From: Gymnopus androsaceus JB14
Taxonomy: Eukaryota > Basidiomycota > Agaricomycetes > Agaricales > Omphalotaceae
Direction of reading: 5' to 3'
Assembly (NCBI GenBank): GCA_009733575.1
Contig: ML769857.1
Location: 1 to 40,785, forward strand
Length of the DNA stretch: 40,785 bases
The notes under the pieces are model-generated. The model had not been told where the DNA came from and made no database searches. It was given only the letters and a program-made list of their open reading frames with translations. The position numbers and the translations under genes are program-made. Shown piece after piece: positions 1 to 33,566 of this stretch (the first letter of the stretch is position 1; every line of letters starts with the position of its first letter).

Positions 1-363
1 GCGACGCATGTGACTGCTTGCGCATGTTTGAACTTTGTTGCCACTTCTTCTTGAACCGCCACTACTGTGTTCGCCCGTTCTTTACTCCGGCAGAACTTCC
101 AAGCTAGACAGCGGTGAGCTTTCTCGTTTACAACCCTCTTACTCCTCTTTAGCCACTTGCCATCCCCAGAGCCAACGGTCGCCCAAAATTCTGTCCGAAG
201 GATTCGTCGTAGGCTCCGGGGCTGGATGGAGGCTGTAGAGGGGTAAGGGTGCTTTCATTTTTACCATCACATCCATTCGATTTATGACCTGATCTTTCCA
301 GAAACTCATAGCCAAGTATATATATACTACTACTCGTCCTATACTTCTCTGCTCCATTCTGCA
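1..363. other. Left edge, no gene recognised
   Basis: Open frames here lie on both strands over the same bases and none resembles a known family. The stretch is T/C-rich just before the ATG at 364, as is common upstream of basidiomycete start codons, so it probably contains the 5' leader and promoter of the fragment that follows. Confidence 0.4.
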
Positions 364-734
364 ATGCCACTCAAGAAGAACAAACGGTGAGATCAAAAGA
401 TATTCTACATCCATTTCATACTCACAATTATATACAGTGTATGCAATGTCCCAGATTGCCCATTTCCCTGCAATGGAAGGGATGCACGGGTGCATCTACA
501 CATGTACCATTCGCTGACGTCCACGGTCAAGGTTAATGGTGCGTAATTAGATGGTTCTGCTTCTGCTCACGCTAAACTATTGAAATAGACAATAACATCA
601 TTCTAAGGCGTCGCGAGGACGGTAAAATTCCATGCCCTTGTGGCGCCGAAAGGCATGCTCGTTATAGCTCCCACAAAATTCAAAAAATATTGAAGGAAAC
701 CCCGCACACCAGTCCAGATGATGATTCCAGCTAG
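364..734 (+). pseudogene. C2H2 N-terminal module related to the recombinase-helicase gene at 32.7 kb
   Basis: Three exons join in frame. Exon 1 is 364-386 and starts MPLKKNK. Intron 387-437 ends in ATACAG. Exon 2 is 438-538, intron 539-588 follows, and exon 3 runs from 589 to an in-frame TAG at 732-734. The product has a CxxxxC finger (CNVPDC, then HLHMYH) followed by RRREDGKIPCPCGAERHAR and HTSPDDD. The gene on the minus strand at 32689-32300 has the same order: MPPKKKDK, CSDPYC...HRRMYH, RRDDGKLPCAC..ESHAR, HPSPDDD. Intron phases match and exon 2 is exactly 101 nt in both. The linker and helicase do not continue here. The downstream frame belongs to another family, so this is either a chimeric gene or a truncated copy. 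The fingers probably bind DNA (family inference). Confidence 0.6.
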
Positions 735-858
735 GATGATGTTAATGGATGGTGCCCATGTACATAACTAATTAACTCTTGTTGCTCCGAACCAGTCTTC
801 CCAAATATATTTCATTGAATTACACAACTGTTAATAGGTTACGGGCCCTGAGCTCTAA

Positions 859-19054: not shown

Positions 19055-20761
19055 GAGCCTAACACATGTGTTGTAGGCGACCTATCCGTACCTATCCAAC
19101 TTGGACCCACCGTCGCGATTGTCAATATCGACCGGCAGTAGTGACCTTTGGACTACCTCGAGCTTGCGTACCGCGACCTCCTGTGGGAGTCGCATTGTAC
19201 CGTCATACTCAACTACAACCTCATCCTTCAATAACTCTGGGTCCACTGTCACCATGAGCTACAGCGACTCCACGACTGGCACTAGCGTTACTGGTACTAT
19301 CGGATTCGACACCACTACACACGCCGGGATTGCCATCACAAACCAAGCCTTCACCGCTGTTAACGACGTACAGGATGGTGCTGCCGGTATCTTTGGCCTC
19401 GGATTCCCATCTGGGAGCGATATCCAGGCGAAATTGGTCGAGGCGCAGACAACAGGAGGAGAACCGCTGTCGAGCTCAGATGCTTTCCTCAATGATACGT
19501 ACAAGTATGGTCCATTGCTGACGAGGATTACGATGACGAACCAGTTGGAGGACGATCTTTTCTCTATTTCGTTGCAGTGGGACGAGATTGATGTTGGGTT
19601 AACAATGGAACGTTGACGATTGGGAAGTAGCCTGGTGCGATAGATAATTCGAGTTCGACGTGTGTACCTGTTAAGCTATACACACCTGCCGAAGGTGGTT
19701 TGGATCCTCCGTCGTTTGCTCCGAATAAGGTGCGTCTCGCAACTGCCTTTTTATCTCGCGCTTTGATGCTGAATCCGTTTTTCTTCTAGATATATCCCTT
19801 GTATGTCCTTCTGTCTTGTGCTCAGCCACGATTTAGTCTTCTGATATATTTTCAGCTGTTGGGAAAGCGACATTGACGGTGTGTTTCTCGATGGCAAGCT
19901 TCTCGCAAACTCAACTATTCCAGCGACTGGTGGTTTAGGCACCTCCCAGATTTCTGCTTTAATTGATACGGCATGTTTTTAGGTTACTACTACTCTTATA
20001 TTTTTCACATATTCCTCTCTTCCTAGGGTAATTCCCTCATCCGTGGACCCACTGACGTCGTCAACAATATCCTCACCACCGATACAACCCAGCCTCTACC
20101 TCGTCTGTCCCTTCGTTGCCATGTACTTCTGCGCATACCCTTGCGTTCCAGATTTTCCCGATAGATCCCAGAGACTTTATTAGTGAGACGAGCACAGATA
20201 CAAAGACTTGCGAGGAAAGCTCCGTTGTACCGACAGATCCTCCGGGTGTTGGAGCTCTGTTTAGCTGGAGATTGGGTAATCCATTCATGAAATCTTGAGT
20301 GCGACTTTCCTACCCCCCTTCATTCAGAGTATCCTTTTACTCTCTTTCCTTGTCGCACCTGATACTGATGGATGATTATTCAACTACAGAACGCTTGTGG
20401 CATTCCATTATGGAAACTTGACCAACCCTTCCGTCGACCCACCCATGATTGGGCTCCTCTCTATGGTTCCAGATAATTCGGCCGCACTGCTGACAGAAGT
20501 TGTAGACAATGCCCAAAGTGCATGGTGTTTCGAAAGTAAGTAACAGTCGGGCTGCATTCCTTGTTTGCGATTAATCATATTCCTACAGGTACAATCGAAG
20601 TCGCACCGACTGCTAGTGCCGCAGCTGAGGCAGCTGTGACTGTCATCCCTACGATTCCTGCTGCCAACAACGTTGCTTCTACCTCCTCGCCTGCTCCTTC
20701 GGTCGCTGCCGTACATTCGGATTCGAAAGCTCAGAAGAGGTTGGAGAGTTTAGGACGCTAG
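19055..20761 (+). pseudogene. Pepsin-like (A1) aspartic protease, broken in the catalytic loop
   Basis: The order of blocks is that of secreted fungal A1 proteases: VVGDLSVPIQLG, the first catalytic loop with SSDLWT, SGTVTMSYSDSTTGTSVTG-like strands, AAGIFGLGFP, DIDGVFLDGKLL, ISALIDT/GNSLIRGP (second catalytic Asp), PIDPRDFI, PTDPPGVGALFSWRLG, and an Ala/Ser/Pro-rich tail ending SLGR at TAG 20759-20761. At 19124-19136 the bases GTCAATATCGACCGG lack two nucleotides expected for VNIDTG, so the frame shifts in the first DTG motif. Further shifts occur near 19590-19650 and 20090-20130, and a stop follows PFMKS at 20298. Introns are visible, including 19971-20026 with a GC-AG boundary between IDT and GNS. 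The start and signal peptide were not found. The enzyme would act outside the cell; this copy cannot. Confidence 0.75.
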
Positions 20762-21528: not shown

Positions 21529-24040
21529 ATGCTCGCAGCACGAGGAGTGGAATATACAAGGTCTGTTTTTTGCATGCCTTGTTGTTCTTGATCCTGATAC
21601 GATATGTAGATGAAAATACAGGCACAGAACGAAAGATCAGACAGACGCATCTGGGACGGTTATTTGCAATACCAAAGGACTATTCTAGGTGAGTTGAATG
21701 ATTTCTTCCCTAAGTAAGATTATGAATCTACAGATCTAATTGGCCCTTTCACATTAGACGAAGCTATCATCAAAAAAAACGAACACAATTAACGATACAT
21801 CACGAGCACGGGAATGGGTCCAACTCATATCCATATCCTCCATATCAACAGCGGCAGGCGGGGGCTTCAGCTACGCCAAATATTAATATTACTTCGCCTA
21901 CATCTCCTCCGTTTAGGTGTTTGCCGCCTATCGACACGGACGGCAACGACGAAGATGATTATGAAGAGGAAGACGATGATACGCCTCTAGGAATATTGGT
22001 CGAGAACTCGGATTCGATGCCGCCAGGGATACTCGTGGACGAATCCTCTATATCTCCAGGCATCCCAACCCCACTCCCTTCTCCCAATGCTAACTCTGAT
22101 AGCGAGACCAGCATTGGGACTGGAGACTACTCCTACTCCTCCTCAAACGTTCAATTATACATTTCTCCCGGATATGAGTCTCGTTACTGGGACTGATAGG
22201 GAGGGCTTGGGTTCAGGATAGGCTAAAGGCGGTTCTTCGTCGATCATCGGTGCTGGTACAGGATCAGCATTCGATGGTGGCTTTGCAACTTGGCAAGCTG
22301 GGATGCCTCTGCAGTTAGTCCCAGTACCGACTACGCTGCAGCTATGGGCGGAGGCGGGAGCAACTCAACCATATCTCCTACTCACTACAACCACATCCCT
22401 CGACCCCCAAATGCCTTCATCCTCTTCCGTTCTGCCTTTATCCGGAGCCGTAAAATCTCCTCCTCAATCGAAGGGAACCATAGTACCCTCAGCAAGATCA
22501 TCGGACAGGTGTGGAGAGGGCTGCCGGAGCCGGAGAGGAAGGAATGGGAGGAGAAGGCGAGGATTGCGCAGGAGGAACATCGGATGAGGTATCCGGATTG
22601 GAGGTTTAGTCCCGCAGGCACCGGGGGAAGGGGTGCAAAGAATAAGGGTAATCGAGGGAGAGGGGGAAGAGGAAGGGAGAGGGAGAGGGAGAGGGAGGTT
22701 GAAAGCTGGAGTCGGGCATGAAGATGAGGAAGGTTCGAACCAGGAAAATGAAGATATGGAACAAGGACCGGGTATCCGACTTGCTCTCCCTCCTCCTCCT
22801 ACTCGTACTTCCGCCGCTTCAGGCTCGAAATCGAACCTTCACGGTGCAGAAGCTAATACAAACTCGGACTTGGATTCGATTACAGCTATGGCTAACGTCG
22901 ATGCGAATGCAAGTTCGGGTTTGAATACGAGGAATGATAGCGGAGAAGCTAATATTGTCAAGGAAGGGCCCTACCGCTGGTTCTACCCTCACTCTTCCTT
23001 CTGCTTCGACATCGAAATCCACCTCCGTCTTCAGCACCATTCGTTCTCGTGCTCGTGCAGGTCGTGGATCCAAATCACAATCTTTTGGCGCGAGCAATAT
23101 TGGTGTAGTTGAAGGTGAAAGCGCTGCCGAGGCTAACGCCGATGTTGATGCTCGTTCCGCTACCACCGTTGAGACTGGCCCCAATACGATGATGACGACT
23201 CGGTCAAGAACTCGGAGCAGTAGAAACTCGGCGCAGATTCCAACTGGTCTTCCTACTCCAACTCCCACAGGTATTATTTCCACTAGTACCGACGTCAACG
23301 TCGACCAGAAGGACAACGTATCCAAACCTAGACCTTCATCCGAAAATCAAGACGATGCTGGTGCTGGTACAGGTCGCGGGAGGTATAGCGCAGAGGCAAA
23401 GCGCAAAGGAAAAGCAAAGGAGCCCGAACAACGACAATCACGAGAACGAGAACGCGATCGAAACCAATCTAAATCCCGAACCCAAAGCATCATCGGATTA
23501 ATGGCTGCAGTCGCAAACGAAACTACCGCATCATCGTCCTCGTCTGTATTGGCAGAAGCCCGGGTTAATGCTATTGCCGATATGCTTGCGCGGGCGTTCG
23601 AAGGTCGGGCTTTAGAGGTGGCGGTGAGGTAGTGGGAGATGGTTGTGGAGAGGGAGAAGCAAAGGAAGAAAGGGACGGGACGGGAAAAGGAGAGGCGGAA
23701 AGGGAAGGGGAAGACTGGTGCGGATACGGATGCGAGTGAGAAGAAGGATGATGCAATTGGTGAGAAGGATTCGGCGACGGAAGAAAGATTAGTCGAAACG
23801 ACGAAGAATACAAGCGGTGGGGCAAAGATGATGTCGAAGAGCGTCTCGGAAGTGGATCAGAGAGCAAGGTTCAAGCACAAGATGACGGTAAACGTGGGAG
23901 GACGCTATACCCATCGCTCAATTTTACCTTTGGAGTACGTGGCCAAGAGGAATCTCCTTCGCACATCTTCAGCGAACGAGGGGAAGACTTTGGGTCGTTG
24001 CGAGGAACTGTTGATACCTATAGCGCTAACAGTCGTGTAG
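21529..24040 (+). pseudogene. MATA-type HMG-box transcription factor, frameshifted
   Basis: The HMG box lies at 22395-22607: IPRPPNAFILFRSAFI, then HSTLSKIIGQVWRGLPEPER, and EHRMRYPDWRF at its end. RPPNAFILFR and PDWRF are typical of fungal mating-type and PCC1-like HMG proteins that bind DNA in the nucleus. A plausible first exon starts at ATG 21529 (MLAARGVEYTR), followed by short introns and a frame with an acidic run (DDYEEEDDD). After the box the frame changes three times: 22721 to the frame of 22633, then to that of 22934, then past a stop at 23630. All these pieces have coherent Ser/Arg-rich composition. The first change coincides with a GGGAGA repeat at about 22675-22697, a likely slippage site. 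The gene is therefore probably dead, unless these are sequencing errors. Nothing shows whether it had a mating role. Confidence 0.7.
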
Positions 24041-25681
24041 GGGGTGTGCAGGAGGTTCCAAGTAAGTGTAGTGATTGTGTATTTCTTGTCCTTTTACTGA
24101 TTGTTTTCGCGTCTCTTTTCCTCAAGATCGAGTTCTAGTAACGAGACGGAAAGAGAACGCGGACGTGCCGGCGGAGAATGGGAGGAAATTGGGCGTACCA
24201 AGGCTCTCGGTATGGAGAAGCTGCTCTTTATTGCATCGAGGAATTTACCCGGAAATGGTGTCTATCATTCTTTCCCTTTCAAGCTTCCCATCGCAACGTT
24301 TCTGTCCCAGTTTCACATTCTCCCCTTGTCAACGTCATCCGGGCTTCTCGCTATCCACTCTTTCTCCCTTTCTTCCTCCGTCTTGATGCTGTTCGCTGGC
24401 GAATTCGAACTCCTTGAATCTGCATAGGGAATCGGCCCTGGATGGATTAGCTGTCTCAAGCAATGCGTCCGAGATATTCGATGCACAAGTGTGCATTCGT
24501 TCTTTCGATGTCTTTCGATGCTGAAAAACACCGCCGGAGGCTCATGGTTTTCTTCCGGGTTAGTTACGGCGTAATCGACGAGAGGGCCCATAGAGATGTG
24601 CTAAACGTTCGATCCGTCTCGAGTATGGTTCTTAGAGGTTGTGACCTCATACAGGGTTGGACTGAAAAATGTGACGGAAGAACTGTCAATGAGTCAGAGT
24701 GGCTATCCGAGTGCGCAGACGTCTCGAATTACATTCTCTTCGAACCACTACATGTTCAAGGCTTGTGGCGCTCGATCCATCTTTCACGGACGCTGCAAAT
24801 ACCGCTCCCAAAACACGCCCTCGGATTATACGTGTCGATACCTTCCTTTCCTTCCTTCCTCCATGTCCAATGTGTACATCCGCCCGTCAACTTCGACGAC
24901 CTGCGCTGTGGAATCGTACCAGAGAAATATGGATGGTTATAGGGAGTTCGTGTCTTCATGAGGACATTGGACACTTCGACGACGTCGGGACGAGTAGTTC
25001 TTTGCTTGCTCGGGCCTAGCCTTGTTCATTCATTGCTGTTTCAGTGATAAATTATTTTCACTGTCCATTTCTTGCCGGAAACGAACAAACAAGCCTTGAA
25101 AGATTCGACGCTACATCTGGGTCCTGCAGCACTCTGAATCGATTATCTTCCTCCTCTGTTAACGTCATTTATGTGATCTATCCTGGAACCTTATCTCTCC
25201 CTCCAGCTCAATGCGGGGCGCTTTTACAGGAGGCCGAACCTGCTATCACCGCCTCAGTGTCGAATGATGGGCCAGATCATTGGCAATTGCTGTCGCCGGT
25301 TCGTGGTGAAAGAATGGAGTAGATGTGGAGGAAATGGAGTTGGTACAGCGGTGAACCTTGGAATCCGTTCGTGATTTTTCTCATGTGTTTCTCTTTGAAT
25401 GTCCCTCAAATTTGTTGTCTTCGCAGTCATTACGACTCTTCAAGAGATCCGCAGTATCTATTATCAAAGCTCTCGCGTAGCAAAGATCGAAAATTTCAGA
25501 TCGATAGTCGTGGTGTGTACTGCTGTGACCTGCTTCTCAGGACAACTAGTTAAAACTGACTCTTGCTACAGGTCTAGCACAGTGCCGTCCGTCATGCCCG
25601 CAATGAAGTGGAATAAGGGTTATAGCGGGTATAGACTGCTGTTTCTTGTGATCACGACAATTCGAGGGTTATATTTAATGC
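24041..25681. other. No confident gene
   Basis: Many open frames up to 159 codons occur here, but they overlap on several frames of one strand, as expected for sequence of this base composition, and show no domain. The part at 24160-24240 could be a continuation of the decayed HMG gene. No repeat was recognised. Confidence 0.4.
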
Positions 25682-26433
25682 TACTATGAAGGAGGACATG
25701 CAGTACCTTGTTTTCTTTGTCCTCGTCTCGCCGGTGCCCTTTTATTTTCCTACTTCTCCATCTCTATGACTATTTGCACTTCTCCATCTGTCTCCAACCA
25801 CCATCACATTGCTGGCCGAATCTGCACCAAGACTAGTAGAGGCCTCATGCGGGCTGTTATCCACCTCCAATGCTCGCGATCTCAATAACGTCGGGCATAG
25901 GAAGGACTTGAGTGGAGGATTGAATTGTTGCCAGTTGTATACCCGTATGCCTTTCTTAGCGACCCGGAGTTACAAATCCACAACTTAACCTTTGGCTAGG
26001 AACCTGGCATAATTAGAATCTTTGACAATGGGCGCCATGTTATCTGTTGTTTGCCTGAGACTAAGAATCGGGGAGCTGCCTTGGAAAGTTTGAGTGAGTA
26101 ACCGGTATGTGAATGCCTCTATTTTTGGCATACCACCATCTAATCTCAATGGGTCGATTTACTAGGTGTACAAGGCTCCTCCACTCACGTCCGGCGTCCA
26201 TCTTTCTACTTCACCACGCTCAACTGCATAGCTTGTGCCGTCTTCTAAAGGTTCATCGGATTCCTCTGCACTTGGTCTGCATCTCTTCCCACTATGATAT
26301 ATTTATATTCGTGGCATGTCCTAGAAGTTGGAGAAGTGCGAATAGTCGTAGAGATGGAGAAGTAGGAAAATAAAAGGGCGCCGGCAAGACGAGGACGAAG
26401 AAAACAAGGTACTGCATGTCCTCCTTCATAGTA
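25682..26433. repeat. Inverted repeat with 106-108-bp arms
   Basis: The arms are 25682-25787 and 26326-26433, about 540 bp apart. Each starts TACTATGAAGGAGGACATGC and contains TTTATTTTCCTACTTCTCCA. They differ by a few changes that are mostly transitions. Both translate outward-in as YYEGGHAVPCFL and LAGALLFSYFSIS, so they may derive from a coding segment of a repeated gene. The bases between and the flank to 26933 show no gene. Confidence 0.65.
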
Positions 26434-26933
26434 GGGCAAGGAGTTGCACCAAGCTGGAAGTGCAACTTTCATCATAGCGCTCCTAGTGCATTAGGATTTT
26501 TTGGGTCATGCCCTTTTAGCATCTTCGGGGACGTATAGGCTTGACGCTGGTCCTTTCAGCAACTACTCAATCACCATGGGTGACTTACGAGCCGCCATAC
26601 GCATGGCTCGGTTTCAAACCGAAATCTACTGCTGCCATCTTTAGCCTTCTCGTTACCCTCCTTCTCTCTTGGTAACCTCGAATTCCGCGAGGGTGGAAGC
26701 CACGAGTGTGACGTGAAATGACGACTGGCAGTCTTGGATTCGGTAGCTCGCTCATGAACCGGAATGGGGTGCAGAGTCAGATTTGGACAAGGATGTGGAC
26801 ATTCGAGGTCAAGCTCAGGCTCAAAATGATGAAGGGGTACTTGAGGCTCGAGTGCCTCTGCGTCACCTATGCAGGAATGGTACCTTAACAAATGCCCTGA
26901 ATTTGGGTTGCTTTGCAACTAAAGTTACTTGTA
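26434..26933. other. Downstream flank of the recombinase-helicase gene
   Basis: A minus-strand frame of 115 codons (26918-26571) directly follows the stop codon of the large gene but has no recognised domain. It is the likely 3' flank; I see no terminal repeat that would mark an element end. Confidence 0.35.
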
Positions 26934-29900
26934 TTAATGGGTAGGTCTAGTTAATTTGTACCAAGAAATAATGTAGCATACAAAGTTATGTACTTGGGTT
27001 TTTGTTACTGGTTCGTGGAGCCATCTTTTGAGATGTGAAATATCGGTAAGCTGGGAAGGGTTAATTCCCAGGTCGTTTGCGAGAGCTCCTTCAAAAGCAT
27101 CCTTATTGGGATGCTTGCTGGTATGGCCGAATATGAGTGCAATGAGGTGAGGTACCATAGGGACAAGGGTTGGATTTGGTGCCTCGGAATCGTACACCTG
27201 ATAGGGACATTGGGTGGGGTCAAAAGGCTGCTCAGGAATGGGAGGATGATTGCAAGGTCGATGCAATGGGACCCAGCAGTGCCAGCAGTACAGCCAGTTC
27301 TGATTTTGACTCCAAGATATTTTTAACTGGCCTTCATGCATTTCAAATGCCAAATGACGCTGGTGGTTTGTATCTGGCATGTGCTGCTGGCCGTAGACCC
27401 AGCAATCAAGACAGCCATGAGCATCTGCCGAGTCCAATATCTTCTTAAATTCTATGAGCTGCTGCTCACTAGCAGCACGTTCAGCACATAATTCTGCAGC
27501 ATTAGTTTGGACGGTTATTGGAATTTGTTTTGAAGAGGGATTTGTTGGATCAGAGAGGACGAGAGGCTTGTTAATCTGTGGAAAGTTGGCTAGGGAGAGA
27601 TGGAAGGGAATCTGATAATAAAAGTCAGTAAAATCCATAACAAGTAACAATGAGAATTACCAGAGCTGCTTTTTCACAATTGGAACATAATTCCCCATCA
27701 AGTGCAGCGCAAGACCAAGTCTCGCGATCCAGTGCAGCAAAGCCAAGACGAAGACATTCAGAGGAACGGAGGAGACGCCGCATCTCCTCACGTCCAGAAT
27801 GGTCGGGATTAGAAGGAGCTAAAGTATGAGGAAGGGCAGACCAAAAAGTGTGGCAGACAGCTGGGATATTATCACGTCCAGCCTGCCCTGTTTCCTGCAC
27901 CCAATTAATGAGCTCGCGAGGGTTTTTGTGGATCGTAATTCGAACATGAGGATAGTTGATGTCTTGGCCAAATGCCTGATCATGGGTGCACAGCATCCAG
28001 CGATCAGAGAAGCTCTTCCCTTTCCTCCAGACCTCCGTAGCCTTGTCTCGGGCTTCATTGTCAAGGTCACCGTGGTACACTGGAGACTTTAAAGTCTCGC
28101 ACAGAGCATTCACGTCATCAATCATCTGGCAAAAGATAATTCCTCGTTCTTTCCCTTCGAGCTGCACTCCCTGGCCATTCACAAGGCTCTCAATTCTTGG
28201 AAGAATATCGGTGTCATCATCTATCTTCTCCATCAAGTATTTCAAATTCTTCCGACCAGTATAATGCCGGATTTCATCCACTATAGTTGGATCGTGAATC
28301 TGCATTTGTTCCAGGAGGTAGGGTATCGACCGAGGCATAAGTGTGGCTGATAGGAAAGTAATGGGGACGGAGGTGGAAGTGAGGTGGTAGAATAACTTGA
28401 AGCATGGATGGAAGGACTCATCCACCAGTATTTTGTGTGCCTCATCTATGAAAATTCGCATAAGACGTTGGCGAATTGTGCCACAGGTAACCCAGTCCAT
28501 AAACTCGTCCGTTCCAGCTTTGCGAGCTGATACAAGTAAATATCTCAGCCGTATCCACATCCACACCGCTTTCCTTCCAAACTCCTCCAATTATCCCCTG
28601 CCCCATTAACTGAAGTCTCAAGTCTTCCGTTGAGAATGATTAAAGGACTTATGACTATGAAAAGCCTGCCAGGGAAGAGTTTTGTGGCACCAAAAAAGGA
28701 CATGGACTTGCCCCCACCCTGTTTCGAGCACATACCGAGGATGTGGAGATTACTTCGAACACTATTGATGAGCTGTGCTTGCTCGGGACTGGTAAAGGCA
28801 TTCGAATTTGCGGCGAACCACAACCTGAAGTGCCTGCTTCACTATGAGGGTGGACTGGAACGACGGCGAGGGTTTCGATAAGGAGGAACTTGACCTGCAT
28901 GGATGGATGACGTTGGTAAGTCTGAGTATCGAGTGCGACTCGAACATCCGTCATTAGGAAATGCTGCGTTTCGAAGTTCCATCCCCTCGAACCGGAGGTA
29001 ATGTGATCTTGAAGGGATCGGAACTGAGATTTGATGAGCTCAGTTGTTGCTATAGAGTTTTGACCAGCTCCATCCTAGAAACATTAGAATCTGAACTGAA
29101 ATAATTAAATTTATACTCACCGGAGACTCAGGCATGATCTTGCCTTGTAGAATAGGGTGCAAGAGGCCAACAAAAGCCTGCCAACGTACTGAGACCTGTT
29201 GCATATTCGCAATTGCATCAGGTGCAATGCGAGTACCCTTTCCAACCTCATCCAGCCCATAGTGAGCACGTCCAACGTCTACTGAGTGGTTGAACTGCTG
29301 GTGGGCCGCCCAGACATTTTCATCTTCCTCCTCTCGGGTCAGAAAGCTGCATGATGTAGTGTAGATAAGGACGCAGGACATGAATTGTCGAAAGTCCGCA
29401 AGTTTAAGTTCTACTCCAGCGTTAATTCGGTTGTGCTCGCCGAGGACCTTGGTAAAGTCTGCACTCTTCATCGATTTACCCCGACAGACGAAGAGCTCAT
29501 AAAAATAGGGCTGGCAGTTCATCTTGTCGGAACCAATATAGCAGCTGATGTATCCAGCAGTCTTATACAGAACGGATACAAGAAGAACAATAAGACGATT
29601 GACCTGGTAAGCTGGAGTGCGTGCTATAAGTCGACCTGCACCAGTGATGGATTGAGTTTTTGAATACTCAGTGGTAATGGTGAGGAACCCATTGATGAAG
29701 AAGACATTTCGTGTATTTTGAGGATGATTTGCAAATAGTAACTTGTCCATCTCTGTTCCTCGAGCGCCGCCACCCCAGGTAGTAACGGTAAGGTAGAAAA
29801 GGCCTTTTACGACATCGTCAAGTTCCTGGAACCACTCGCTGATGCAAGCTGGTGTAATGTTAGAACCAAGGAGGAAAAAAATAAATAAAAGACTTACTTC

Positions 29901-32689
29901 GATTCGGGACAAGTTTACCATCAACCCATCCAAAAAGTCTCGAATTTTCAGCAAGATAGACTAGAAGTCTATTGCTGAATTGCGCTAACCCATTCTCGTC
30001 TTCCTCAAGGAATGAGTATCGCTCCGTATCCCTACCTATCTGGTCACGGAACCACCTAGACTGCCCGCTTTCGTCCGGCACCATCCCCTGATCGATATGT
30101 TCAAGGATATCGAGATATTCACACCCACGGAAGAGACTCTGGATCTTTTCCGATACATCAGCAAGATTTCGTTGGATATTCTTCATAAAGGATGGAATAT
30201 GAACCGGGAACCCGTCAATAGACAGTGTTCTACGATCACGCGACCAGAGAAAACGCGCGATTCCCTGCTGCCGATATGCGATCGAGCTCAAGAGACGCAT
30301 GCTCTGGCGGAGGGAGTTGAACAAGACTTGCTTTCCCTCCGTGATGAACACGCGGATGCTGGAAAAAGCCCTAAATAAACCATCGTTAGCTGAAATCAGT
30401 ATAGAAAGAATATAAATCGCTTACTCAAATGAATCACCGTTGAAATCGTCCAGAATAAGAAGGATTTGTTGTCCTTCAGAGGCCCTGAAGCACCACTGGG
30501 CTCGAGCAATGAGAGGAGTGATGGCGTGAGCGCGGGCAAACTGGCCATGCTGTTTGAGATTAGCAGCGACCAAGAAACGCGTAAAAGGGCACATTTTATC
30601 ATCGCGAATGAATTCTGCACTAGCCTTTGAGAGCACAAGCCAAACCGCATAGTGGACCATCTCCTTCAGAGTCGGACGCGGGAGAAAATTCCGTTCAAGT
30701 TCCCCGTACAGAAGTAATAAATGGGCTTTGAGATCAGGGTGCAGAGGTATCGGAAAAGAGTCCATGGGCGTTTGCTGGTGAATGGTGAGGAAGCACAAGA
30801 ACTGTGTAATACAGTCGGCGTCCCGATTCACAGTCTTTCCGAACTCTTGAGGGCGTCGAAAGGGTTGACTCTTCAACTCACCACTGTAGAAACAATTAAG
30901 TGCTTTGCAGCTGAGGAATATAGATTCACTTACTTGATGTCTGCAGTCAGAAGGTACCGCCGAGTTAAAACAGGGATCTCTGTGATTTTAGGTACCATTT
31001 CTTGGTAGTACTCTGCTACAACCACACGGAGAAGAAGGAAGGCAGGATCAGAGAAATGCTCTGATGCCTTAGCAGTCTTAATCAGGTTTTCAATATGGAC
31101 TCCCTGAATCATCTCGTCCCAGTGAGATTGCGCAAAGACGGCGCATTTTTCACGATCACTAGAAGCGAGGTTGAATACTTCGTTATGTGCGAGGAGGTCA
31201 CAAGCCTCCGCTGCTTGAAGAAAAAGATCAATTCCGCCTGATTTCAAGACTTCCAGAGACGGAGGGATTACTTCGATGTAGGAGCGATACTGTTTTACTC
31301 CGTTCAATGCTTGGCACTTGACTGTGACCCGGGAACGATTCCTCGATTTCACTGTTGGATGGCAGGATGACTGGTGTTCCCGAAGGGATTCTCGATTCGC
31401 AAAGACATGACCCTTGCAATTGTCCACCATACACTTTTCTCCGTTCACAATCTTCACACCTGCAATTGGGTGAATAGGAGCCTGTACCACCTTGGGAGGA
31501 GATGGATCAAACCCTCTGAGCGAACGAATTGCAGAAAGAATAGTAACAGCAGATGGTAGATGTGTCTGAAGGGTGGTATTTGTGTTCCGATAGTGCTTCC
31601 GAGCTTTGTGACGGTAAATATTGTCATAGTTGAATATTGTTTGGCATTCGGGTTCGATACAAACAACCAGATTGTATACAGGGTCGACTTGGATGCCATA
31701 TTGAAAAAGGAACGACCGCAGATCTTCTGAACGTCCATCAGATGGAGGAAGGGCATCGAAATCTTTCACGTTTGCCCCTTCATTAACATCTTCGCCTTCG
31801 GATTCCGATTCACGGCCTAAAAATGTTTGTTTTGTGAGGCTTAAATTAAACGTATCGAAAGCTATACACACCGTCTGTCTGGCATTCCAGATCATCGTCG
31901 TCTCCCTCTTCCTCCCGCTCATTCTCGTCCGAGAAATCTGCACCCAAATCAACGTCCATTGAATCGTCTTTGTCCACGCTCAAATCTTGTCCGTCGGCCA
32001 TGGGAAAATCGACGCGGGCAAGAGCAGGTGGCTCTGCGAATGTTTCCGCATTCGTGGAGCTGTGATCCACGTCAATGGCCATTACATCTTCTTCTGGATC
32101 AACTTGTCGGGCGTCGAACACCAGAGAAGGGGTTAAACGCTCAGAGGAAGATCTTTGAGCTGGGGAAGAGGGTGCTAGAGGGATGAACGGCAACCCAGGT
32201 GCAGCAGGTGCGCTGATGGAGGTAGAGGTCGAGGCGGTAGCAGTTGGAGCGTCGGAGGTGGGATCTACAGGGTTTGGAGGAGGTCGTGGAGGTGCCAATA
32301 TCTGGAAAGGCATGTCGCCGTAATTATCATCGTCGGGAGAAGGGTGGGGGGTTCTGCGGGCCATACTGTATATATTGTAAAAGTTAAACCTAGCGTGAGA
32401 TTCGGCAGCACAAGCGCAAGGCAGCTTGCCATCATCACGACGGTCGAGAGTCACTCTCATACCTTTATATATCGTTAACGTTAGTAGTAGAATAACCGTG
32501 AACGACGCACCTTCAAACATGACCGTACGCATTGGCGAATGATACATTCTCCGATGGGCATCTTCATCATTTCCATGGTAGGGAAAACGACAATAAGGGT
32601 CGCTGCAGACGCTATAAGAAATGGTCAGTAGAGGGTAGATATAGATAAAAGGTTTGAACTTACAGCTTATCCTTCTTCTTTGGCGGCAT
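26934..32689 (-). CDS. Zinc-finger / tyrosine-recombinase-like / RecQ-type helicase protein
   Basis: It starts at ATG 32689 (MPPKKKDKL). My exon model is 32689-32664, 32611-32511, 32462-31872, 31816-30934, 30883-30425, 30370-29898, 29848-29121, 29074 into the helicase, and finally 27611-26934 after intron 27612-27660. The first seven exons give 1,087 codons with no stop. Domains in order: a CxxxxC finger (CSDPYC...HRRMYH, residues about 11-33); a Pro/Ser/Asp-rich linker; two more fingers typical of OrsD-like proteins (CIEPEC...HKARKHY and CMVDNC...HQSSCH); a helical core (SQPFRRPQEF); a recombinase-like segment (listed separately); a RecQ-type helicase (GGGKS, IDEAH, FLSATLMP); and a tail with CSNC and CWHCWVPL. 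At least two frameshifts fall between the Walker A and DEAH regions, so the helicase may be inactive. The recombinase label is my structural reading, not the usual annotation of this family, which resembles telomere-linked helicases. Confidence 0.75.
27661..28843 (-). other. RecQ-like helicase core with altered motifs
   Basis: Motifs in order: SPEQAQLINSV, Walker A QGGGKS, VISPLIIL (Ia), YLLVSARKAGTDEF, IFIDEAHKI (II), ITFLSATLMP (III), GIIFCQM (IV), YHGDLDNEAR, QAFGQDINYPHVRITIH (V) and WVQETGQAGRDN (VI). Motif VI normally reads GRAGRD; here the first Arg is Gln. Motif V normally has a Gly where this copy has Asp (GQD), and two extra residues precede it. The reading frame changes near 28815-28843 and again between about 28560 and 28625. 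ATP binding and unwinding would be lost or impaired in this copy. Confidence 0.7.
29121..29848 (-). other. Tyrosine-recombinase-like domain inside the helicase protein
   Basis: Exon 7 codes for LFYLTVTTWGGGARGTEM (R874, codon at 29762-29760), a strand with FLTITTEYSKTQS (K908, 29660-29658), IARTP, a helical stretch, FTKVLGEHNRINAGVELK, LADFRQ (R998, 29390-29388), and AAHQQFNHSVDVGRAHYGLD with H1032 (29288-29286) and Y1041 (29261-29259). Tyrosine recombinases carry R, K, HxxR, H/W and Y in this order, and the H-to-Y distance of nine residues equals that of the common GHSS...Y box. The box II histidine is Ala (ADFR). Residue numbers depend on my exon model. The function would be DNA strand cleavage and rejoining, by inference only. 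Confidence 0.6.
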
Positions 32690-32854: not shown

Positions 32855-32970
32855 CGAAATACACACCGAGTATCATAAGGTATCATAAACTTCTGCAAAT
32901 ATCAATGTGCTTCATTTTTTCAACTTAAACTGTACAAACCCTAAAGTATGTAATTCCTGAATTTGACGAT

Positions 32971-33216
32971 TTAAGGTGAACGTTGACACTGAGCCGAGAA
33001 GAGGTCAAAATTTGGTGGGCAATGCAATCGCGTTTTGGCAGGAGTCGGCAATCCCCGAACCTGCACTTCCATCTCTTTCCTTGCTTGAGAGCGTTCAACT
33101 TCAGTTACAACTGTTGGATAATTTTCGAGCACCCTAATTAGTCTATATAAATGTCCCGTCCAAGCCTCAAAAGTACAAAAAAAATTGTTCACCTCTACCG
33201 GGCCAAAAAAGCCCAA
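32971..33216 (-). pseudogene. Fragment related to the one at 34551-34744
   Basis: The minus-strand frame contains VTEVERSQARKEMEVQVRG. Continuing with a one-base shift gives GIADSCQNAIALPTKF, which matches GIAGACQNLSALPTNF in the plus-strand fragment at about 34610-34670. The two copies lie in opposite orientation about 1.5 kb apart. The family is unknown. Confidence 0.4.
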
Positions 33217-33566
33217 AATGGTGAGATTTTCAAACTTGAATATTTTATTGTTCTCATCTCGCCCATGTGAATGGACAGACCTTTAAAGTACATGTATAAG
33301 AGCTTATATTATAAGTCTGAAAGGGAACGGACTCGAACTGCGTTCAGATGAAAGAGATTTATCGCAAATTTATCGTCGGATTGCACTTCTTGTACCGATT
33401 GCGGATAATTCTAATCAGAAACCCGATTACAGGCAGAAACCCTTGACTTTCCAAAAACACTATTCAGAAACCTTACCGGATCCCAAGAGCTTTCCGGAGG
33501 CACGGCGGGATTATAAATTGATAATAGATAAGATATGCACTGGTAGAAAGCAACCGCTGGACAATC

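Follow-up and report, generated by a model that had tools for sequence, protein, structure and literature searches.

Analysis of a 40,785-nucleotide stretch of the Gymnopus androsaceus JB14 genome (contig ML769857.1, positions 1 to 40,785; hereafter the window) revealed a predicted tyrosine-recombinase-type catalytic domain in a fungal protein family that joins an OrsD domain to a RecQ-type helicase. The domain is encoded by the seventh exon of a minus-strand gene, and we consider it probable that it cuts and rejoins DNA, whereby the element encoding it would be moved or copied. Five residues in the order Arg, Lys, Arg, His and Tyr are conserved among the relatives of this protein, in which the domain stands between OrsD and RecQ.

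The spliced gene runs from 32689 to 29121 and joins seven exons into an open frame of 1,087 codons, which contains the motifs GARGTEM at residue 872, TEYSKTQ at 904 and DFRQ at 996, followed by H1032 and Y1041. The codons of R874, K908, R998, H1032 and Y1041 lie on the minus strand in this frame at the residue numbers given by the original prediction, which had drawn attention to the constellation. Protein searches, the last of which scored only the candidates sharing most words, returned 47 different proteins, and 35 of these were aligned with the window protein (alignment A4, 36 rows). Among the 12 proteins left out, P0039, P0040, P0041 and P0043 carry all five residues, P0005, P0008, P0016, P0021, P0024, P0044 and P0046 have no letters at some or all of the five positions, and P0047, a bacterial-type RecQ by its domains, was left unaligned.

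With gaps set aside, only nine of the 242 exon-7 columns are invariant (T868, G870, R874, K908, Y959, F964, R998, Q999 and Y1041). Four of these nine are the two arginines, the lysine and the tyrosine of the pattern, while the histidine is kept in 35 of the 36 rows. The complete set is present in 34 of the 36 aligned sequences; of the other two, P0022, which was not included when distances were counted, is gapped at the second Arg, and P0017 has Arg in place of His. Conservation of the Arg and Tyr positions, which the original prediction had named as decisive, is borne out by every aligned row with a letter. A count over 38 proteins, again for rows with a letter, gave R in 36/36, K in 37/37, R in 33/33, H in 34/35 and Y in 35/35, and all 47 returned proteins divide into 37 with the five letters, one with Arg for His, eight without letters and the one bacterial-type RecQ. 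The His-to-Tyr spacing, said at the outset to be nine as in tyrosine recombinases, is indeed nine in all 35 rows counted, as it is in Cre (W315-Y324), XerC, XerD and lambda Int. The Arg-Lys and Arg-His distances are each 34 in 31 of 35 rows, and a short Lys-Arg distance in P0026 (66) is probably a gene-model gap. At the sequence level the five-residue pattern is confirmed to exceed chance, since four of the five fall among nine invariant columns of 242. At the position three residues N-terminal to the second Arg, 20 rows have R, 11 A, 2 T and one each S and Q, so that the His of the HxxR box is absent from all 35 rows counted.

The relationship to recombinases became visible at the level of structure. 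A Pfam integrase match (PF00589) was absent at E values up to 1 from the window protein and five relatives, hhalign detected no sequence similarity to tyrosine recombinases, and Foldseek alone returned no match to the exon-7 model at 0.001. A structural second look matched this model to XerA, XerH and Cre, as the original prediction had anticipated for a comparison of folds, and its ranks 1 to 43 all belong to one superfamily, that of the tyrosine recombinases and topoisomerases IB. Topoisomerases IB and the protelomerase TelA are among the structural matches of the domain and TelK appeared in the whole-protein structure search, although TelK, TelA and topoisomerase IB match less well than Xer and Cre. 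The lysine, first described as lying in a strand, is conserved, but the model places it at the end of a beta-hairpin, just after the strand at 54-61. We conclude that the recombinase-like domain is very likely real; its recombinase fold and its catalysis are predictions.

A single frame containing zinc fingers, recombinase and helicase had been proposed. The order OrsD, recombinase-like domain and RecQ holds in the relatives, but in the window the helicase lies outside the 1,087-codon frame and starts past the next intron, at 29074. There the helicase is broken, since from about 28,960 to 28,520 its reading moves through all three frames, and the stretch 28590-27625 is still helicase-like (Pfam Helicase_C, 23.0 bits; cut-off 23.5). 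Because the helicase is broken despite an open recombinase frame, the window copy is likely no longer self-sufficient. OrsD is the sole Pfam match in the 1,087-codon frame at E values up to 1. In Pfam scans of five relatives, PF12013 (OrsD) was found in four, one of them under the cut-off, DEAD in all five and Helicase_C in four, and an RQC domain in none. The helicase of the relatives is RecQ-like by sequence: a chain annotated as ATP-dependent DNA helicase was matched at E 1.3e-21 and one annotated as RecQ at E 1.5e-19, and TIGR00614 matched in three of four relatives scanned, in each case below the cut-off of the model.

Relatives come from Lentinula, Collybiopsis, Marasmius, Moniliophthora, Armillaria, Termitomyces and Lyophyllum, and further ones from Tricholomella, Suillus, Boletus, Lanmaoa, Hygrophoropsis and Laetiporus. 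The original prediction held that such proteins are usually described only as helicases; helicase names do occur (DNA 3'-5' helicase, helicase ATP-binding domain-containing protein), as does P-loop hydrolase, but so do hypothetical protein, uncharacterized protein and C2H2-type domain-containing protein. The name telomere-linked helicase (TLH) is absent from the names shown, partly abbreviated, for the 47 relatives. A distant case, P0045, is a 1,258-residue JGI protein in which the five residues and the RecQ core persist at identities of 24% (P0020) and 15% (exon 7); a Pfam scan found no OrsD match in it, and it might link the family to further groups of fungi.

The exon-7 protein matched at 12 places on eight contigs of its own genome. 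Sizeable copies lie on six contigs, that of the window included, and the five residues are kept in all six. The copy on contig C407 has a frame break within the domain, with the first Arg in another frame, that on C277 has a stop, and the matches on C463 and C216 are decayed, internally deleted remnants within a common 8.4-kb segment of 96.4% identity. This segment has an in-frame stop common to both and a sharp right boundary; it was set aside as evidence for transposition, as it may reflect a segmental duplication or haplotypes. Between the C816 and C277 copies, nonsynonymous (pN) and synonymous (pS) differences are 0.08 and 0.76 in the domain and 0.19 and 0.83 in the helicase, and the domains of the window and C407 copies, compared from residue 895, gave a pN of 0.16 and a pS of 0.80; values for the helicase and exon 4 of the latter pair were not used, as the pieces are out of frame. 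Because pN is well under pS, the domain is, by this measure, held by selection, which is tighter than on the helicase in the sole pair with both measured. In a FastTree phylogeny the window and C407 copies group with proteins of Lentinula and Collybiopsis, the remaining four genome copies lie together in a deep clade, and elsewhere the tree broadly follows taxonomy. The N-terminal module is more widespread than the recombinase exon, with 35 places on 15 contigs compared with 12 on eight. An orphan copy of the N-terminal zinc-finger exons, ending in a stop, occupies window positions 361-737 (+), and no other part of the protein was reported to match next to it. Moreover, C409 and C495 hold a repeat pair of about 3 kb (91.5%) with the N-terminal module, without clear ends or duplications; the 4.5 kb examined there matched neither recombinase nor helicase.

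Several known systems invite comparison. The present family shares with Cre, XerA, XerH, XerD and lambda Int the predicted catalytic fold and the set of Arg, hairpin Lys, Arg, His and Tyr. It differs from them in lacking the HxxR His, in its mostly 34-residue Arg-Lys and Arg-His distances, in having no detectable sequence similarity and in its fusion to OrsD fingers and a RecQ helicase. An R-K-R-H-Y set without the HxxR His is the topoisomerase IB pentad and is also close to that of the protelomerases TelK and TelA, which have the superfamily fold in common with the domain; we know of no RecQ fusion for either group. AcademH and KolobokH use a DDE transposase and not a tyrosine-recombinase fold. 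These two and Helitron resemble the family, according to the excerpts of published papers on which our literature comparison draws throughout, in combining an element-encoded enzyme with a helicase (PMC10799480), but Helitron has an HUH nuclease (PMC12730594). Cryptons, too, are tyrosine-recombinase genes of eukaryotes, with ends that resist easy definition, but "helicase" has no occurrence in the excerpted Crypton paper (PMC3212892). We rejected an assignment to Cryptons: a Pfam search for GCR1_C, the DNA-binding domain of fungal CryptonF, found none at E values up to 1, either in the window protein or in the five relatives scanned. Cryptons also end in direct repeats of 4 to 6 bp, for which the diverged copies offered no definable ends.

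There is also a likeness in architecture to the TLHs, namely Ustilago UTASa/UTASb, Magnaporthe TLH1 and the fission yeast tlh genes, with which the family has in common a RecQ-type core without an RQC domain. We take DUF3505, a name used for domains of some of the elements below, to be OrsD. RecQ genes at fungal chromosome ends have been reported since at least 1998, and their function is still a matter of debate. In Ustilago maydis, the UTASb repeat contains a conserved core, an OrsD domain or both, lies near telomeres or upstream of UTASa with its RecQ motifs, and may be a homing endonuclease gene by origin (PMC10532341). Three subtelomeric element families of Colletotrichum higginsianum carry helicase and DUF3505 domains, one of them also a DDE transposase and one retrotransposon domains (PMC5576322). 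In Agaricus bisporus var. burnettii there are 19 subtelomeric RecQ gene models, which are absent from var. bisporus (PMC7473861). Points of likeness are the pairing of OrsD with RecQ in U. maydis and of a helicase with DUF3505 in C. higginsianum, as well as the repeated, partly broken copies, whereas a recombinase domain is not mentioned for fungal TLHs in the excerpts. Likewise, no paper joining a tyrosine recombinase with fungal OrsD, RecQ or telomere-linked helicases stood out among the matches listed from titles and abstract starts of open-licence PMC papers. On architectural grounds, the present family may plausibly represent the branch of these helicases found in mushrooms.

We propose that the zinc-finger and OrsD part would bind the DNA of the element. 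As in Cre and XerD, one strand would be attacked by Tyr1041 to give a 3'-phosphotyrosyl link, and opening or migration of the strands would fall to the RecQ motor. Excision or copying of the element and its joining at another site, possibly at a chromosome end, could follow. Its own DNA is the presumed target, since the copies are multiple and decayed. That the family consists of mobile elements that cut and unwind their own DNA, as originally suggested, is plausible, but around the copies compared neither ends nor target duplications nor empty sites proved definable, and the helicase in the window is broken. Flanks were compared for the window gene and for places on C407, C216, C330, C409, C495 and C563. 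Two C407 places resemble the window gene as far out as 32841, some 150 bases upstream of its start codon, with other repeats beyond; common ends and target duplications were not found in the flanks of these diverged copies, and empty sites were not definable. Three-unit TTAGGG tracts match 80 times genome-wide and never on the six contigs that carry sizeable copies; contig C216 has one, about 26 kb from its remnant.

Two further observations temper our preferred explanation. In the A. bisporus subtelomeric RecQ models a telomere-to-telomere study detected no domain beyond the helicase core, hence no OrsD (PMC7473861), and the tree mostly follows taxonomy, so that old vertical descent with duplication would fit as well as old mobility. 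Both slightly lower the odds of our preferred explanation and of its bolder extension, which we put forward as a somewhat doubtful possibility: that telomere-linked RecQ helicases across fungi are transposases of one old mobile class, uniting OrsD fingers, tyrosine recombinase and RecQ in one protein and cutting, unwinding and reinserting their own DNA at chromosome ends, and not host telomere helicases.

The main rival is an active cutting and rejoining enzyme that maintains telomeres or subtelomeres, and does not transpose, in the manner of topoisomerase IB or a telomere resolvase, its RecQ motor unwinding DNA as in RecQ-topoisomerase partnerships. It gains this standing because the residue set, without the HxxR His, nears those of topoisomerase IB and the protelomerases. 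The structural matches to topoisomerases IB, TelA and TelK are in its favour, as are OrsD/RecQ near telomeres in U. maydis (PMC10532341), the subtelomeric helicase-DUF3505 elements of C. higginsianum (PMC5576322) and the subtelomeric RecQ genes of A. bisporus (PMC7473861); overall we regard this role as rather unlikely. Domestication of a former recombinase for DNA binding or protein contact, without catalysis, as in Crypton-derived host genes, would agree with the missing HxxR His and has a parallel in yeast Cbf2 and Gcr1, which resemble the Crypton recombinase domain without a catalytic site (PMC3212892). However, a binding-only domain would be expected to lose the Tyr, whereas both Arg, the Lys and the Tyr are invariant wherever an aligned row has a letter, in contrast to the variation in most other columns, and we judge this explanation improbable. 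Least credible of all is a chance constellation in an unrelated helical domain: sequence methods and Foldseek alone did fail to see a recombinase, but the invariant columns, the uniform superfamily of the structural ranks and the constant His-Tyr distance make it very improbable.

Table 1. Features of the OrsD-RecQ gene in the window.
Feature	Position	Strand	Basis
Exon 1, start codon	32664..32689	-	Spliced open frame
Exon 2, N-terminal Cys/His finger-like stretch	32511..32611	-	Spliced frame; motif by sequence reading, without profile match
Exon 3, remainder of N-terminal module and acidic linker	31872..32462	-	Spliced frame; module repeated within own genome
Exon 4	30934..31816	-	Spliced open frame
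OrsD domain (PF12013), residues 284-392	31359..31685	-	Pfam E 5.3e-06, 27.3 bits, cut-off 26.6
Exon 5, precedes catalytic domain	30425..30883	-	Spliced frame; mostly helical in relative's model
Exon 6, precedes catalytic domain	29898..30370	-	Spliced frame; relative's model
Exon 7, predicted tyrosine-recombinase-fold catalytic domain	29121..29848	-	
Arg874 codon, first catalytic Arg (predicted)	29760..29762	-	R in 36/36 rows
Lys908 codon, beta-hairpin Lys	29658..29660	-	K in 36/36 rows
Arg998 codon, second catalytic Arg (predicted)	29388..29390	-	R in 35/36 rows, one gap
His1032 codon	29286..29288	-	H in 35/36 rows, one R
Tyr1041 codon, predicted nucleophile	29259..29261	-	Y in 36/36 rows
RecQ-type helicase region, frame broken in window copy	27625..29074	-	RecQ identity from relatives' domain
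C-terminal Cys/His-rich region, after helicase	26934..27656	-	27614-26949 resembles P0001 residues 1493-1716 (53.6%)

The surroundings of the gene hold further repeats. Just upstream, at 32880-33402, lies a separate repeat of about 523 bases with at least 13 near-full copies (71-85% identity) and partial ones in the genome, and just downstream a 109-base inverted repeat (25681-25789 and 26326-26434, 94% alike). Open frames at 19077-19613 and 22227-22718 (+) match aspartyl protease and HMG-box. A two-unit TTAGGG tract lies at C463:3683 and is absent from the window and the other examined stretches. Short TTAGGG tracts occur on many contigs, often as pairs 79 bases apart, most of them distant from contig starts.

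Overall, roles of the domain in mobility or at telomeres are candidate roles only, and both are directly testable. If OrsD-RecQ genes carry a working recombinase, this would provide a testable enzyme behind the way they spread, differ in presence among varieties and accumulate at chromosome ends. Such a protein would also represent a rare natural union of a strand-cutting recombinase with a RecQ motor.
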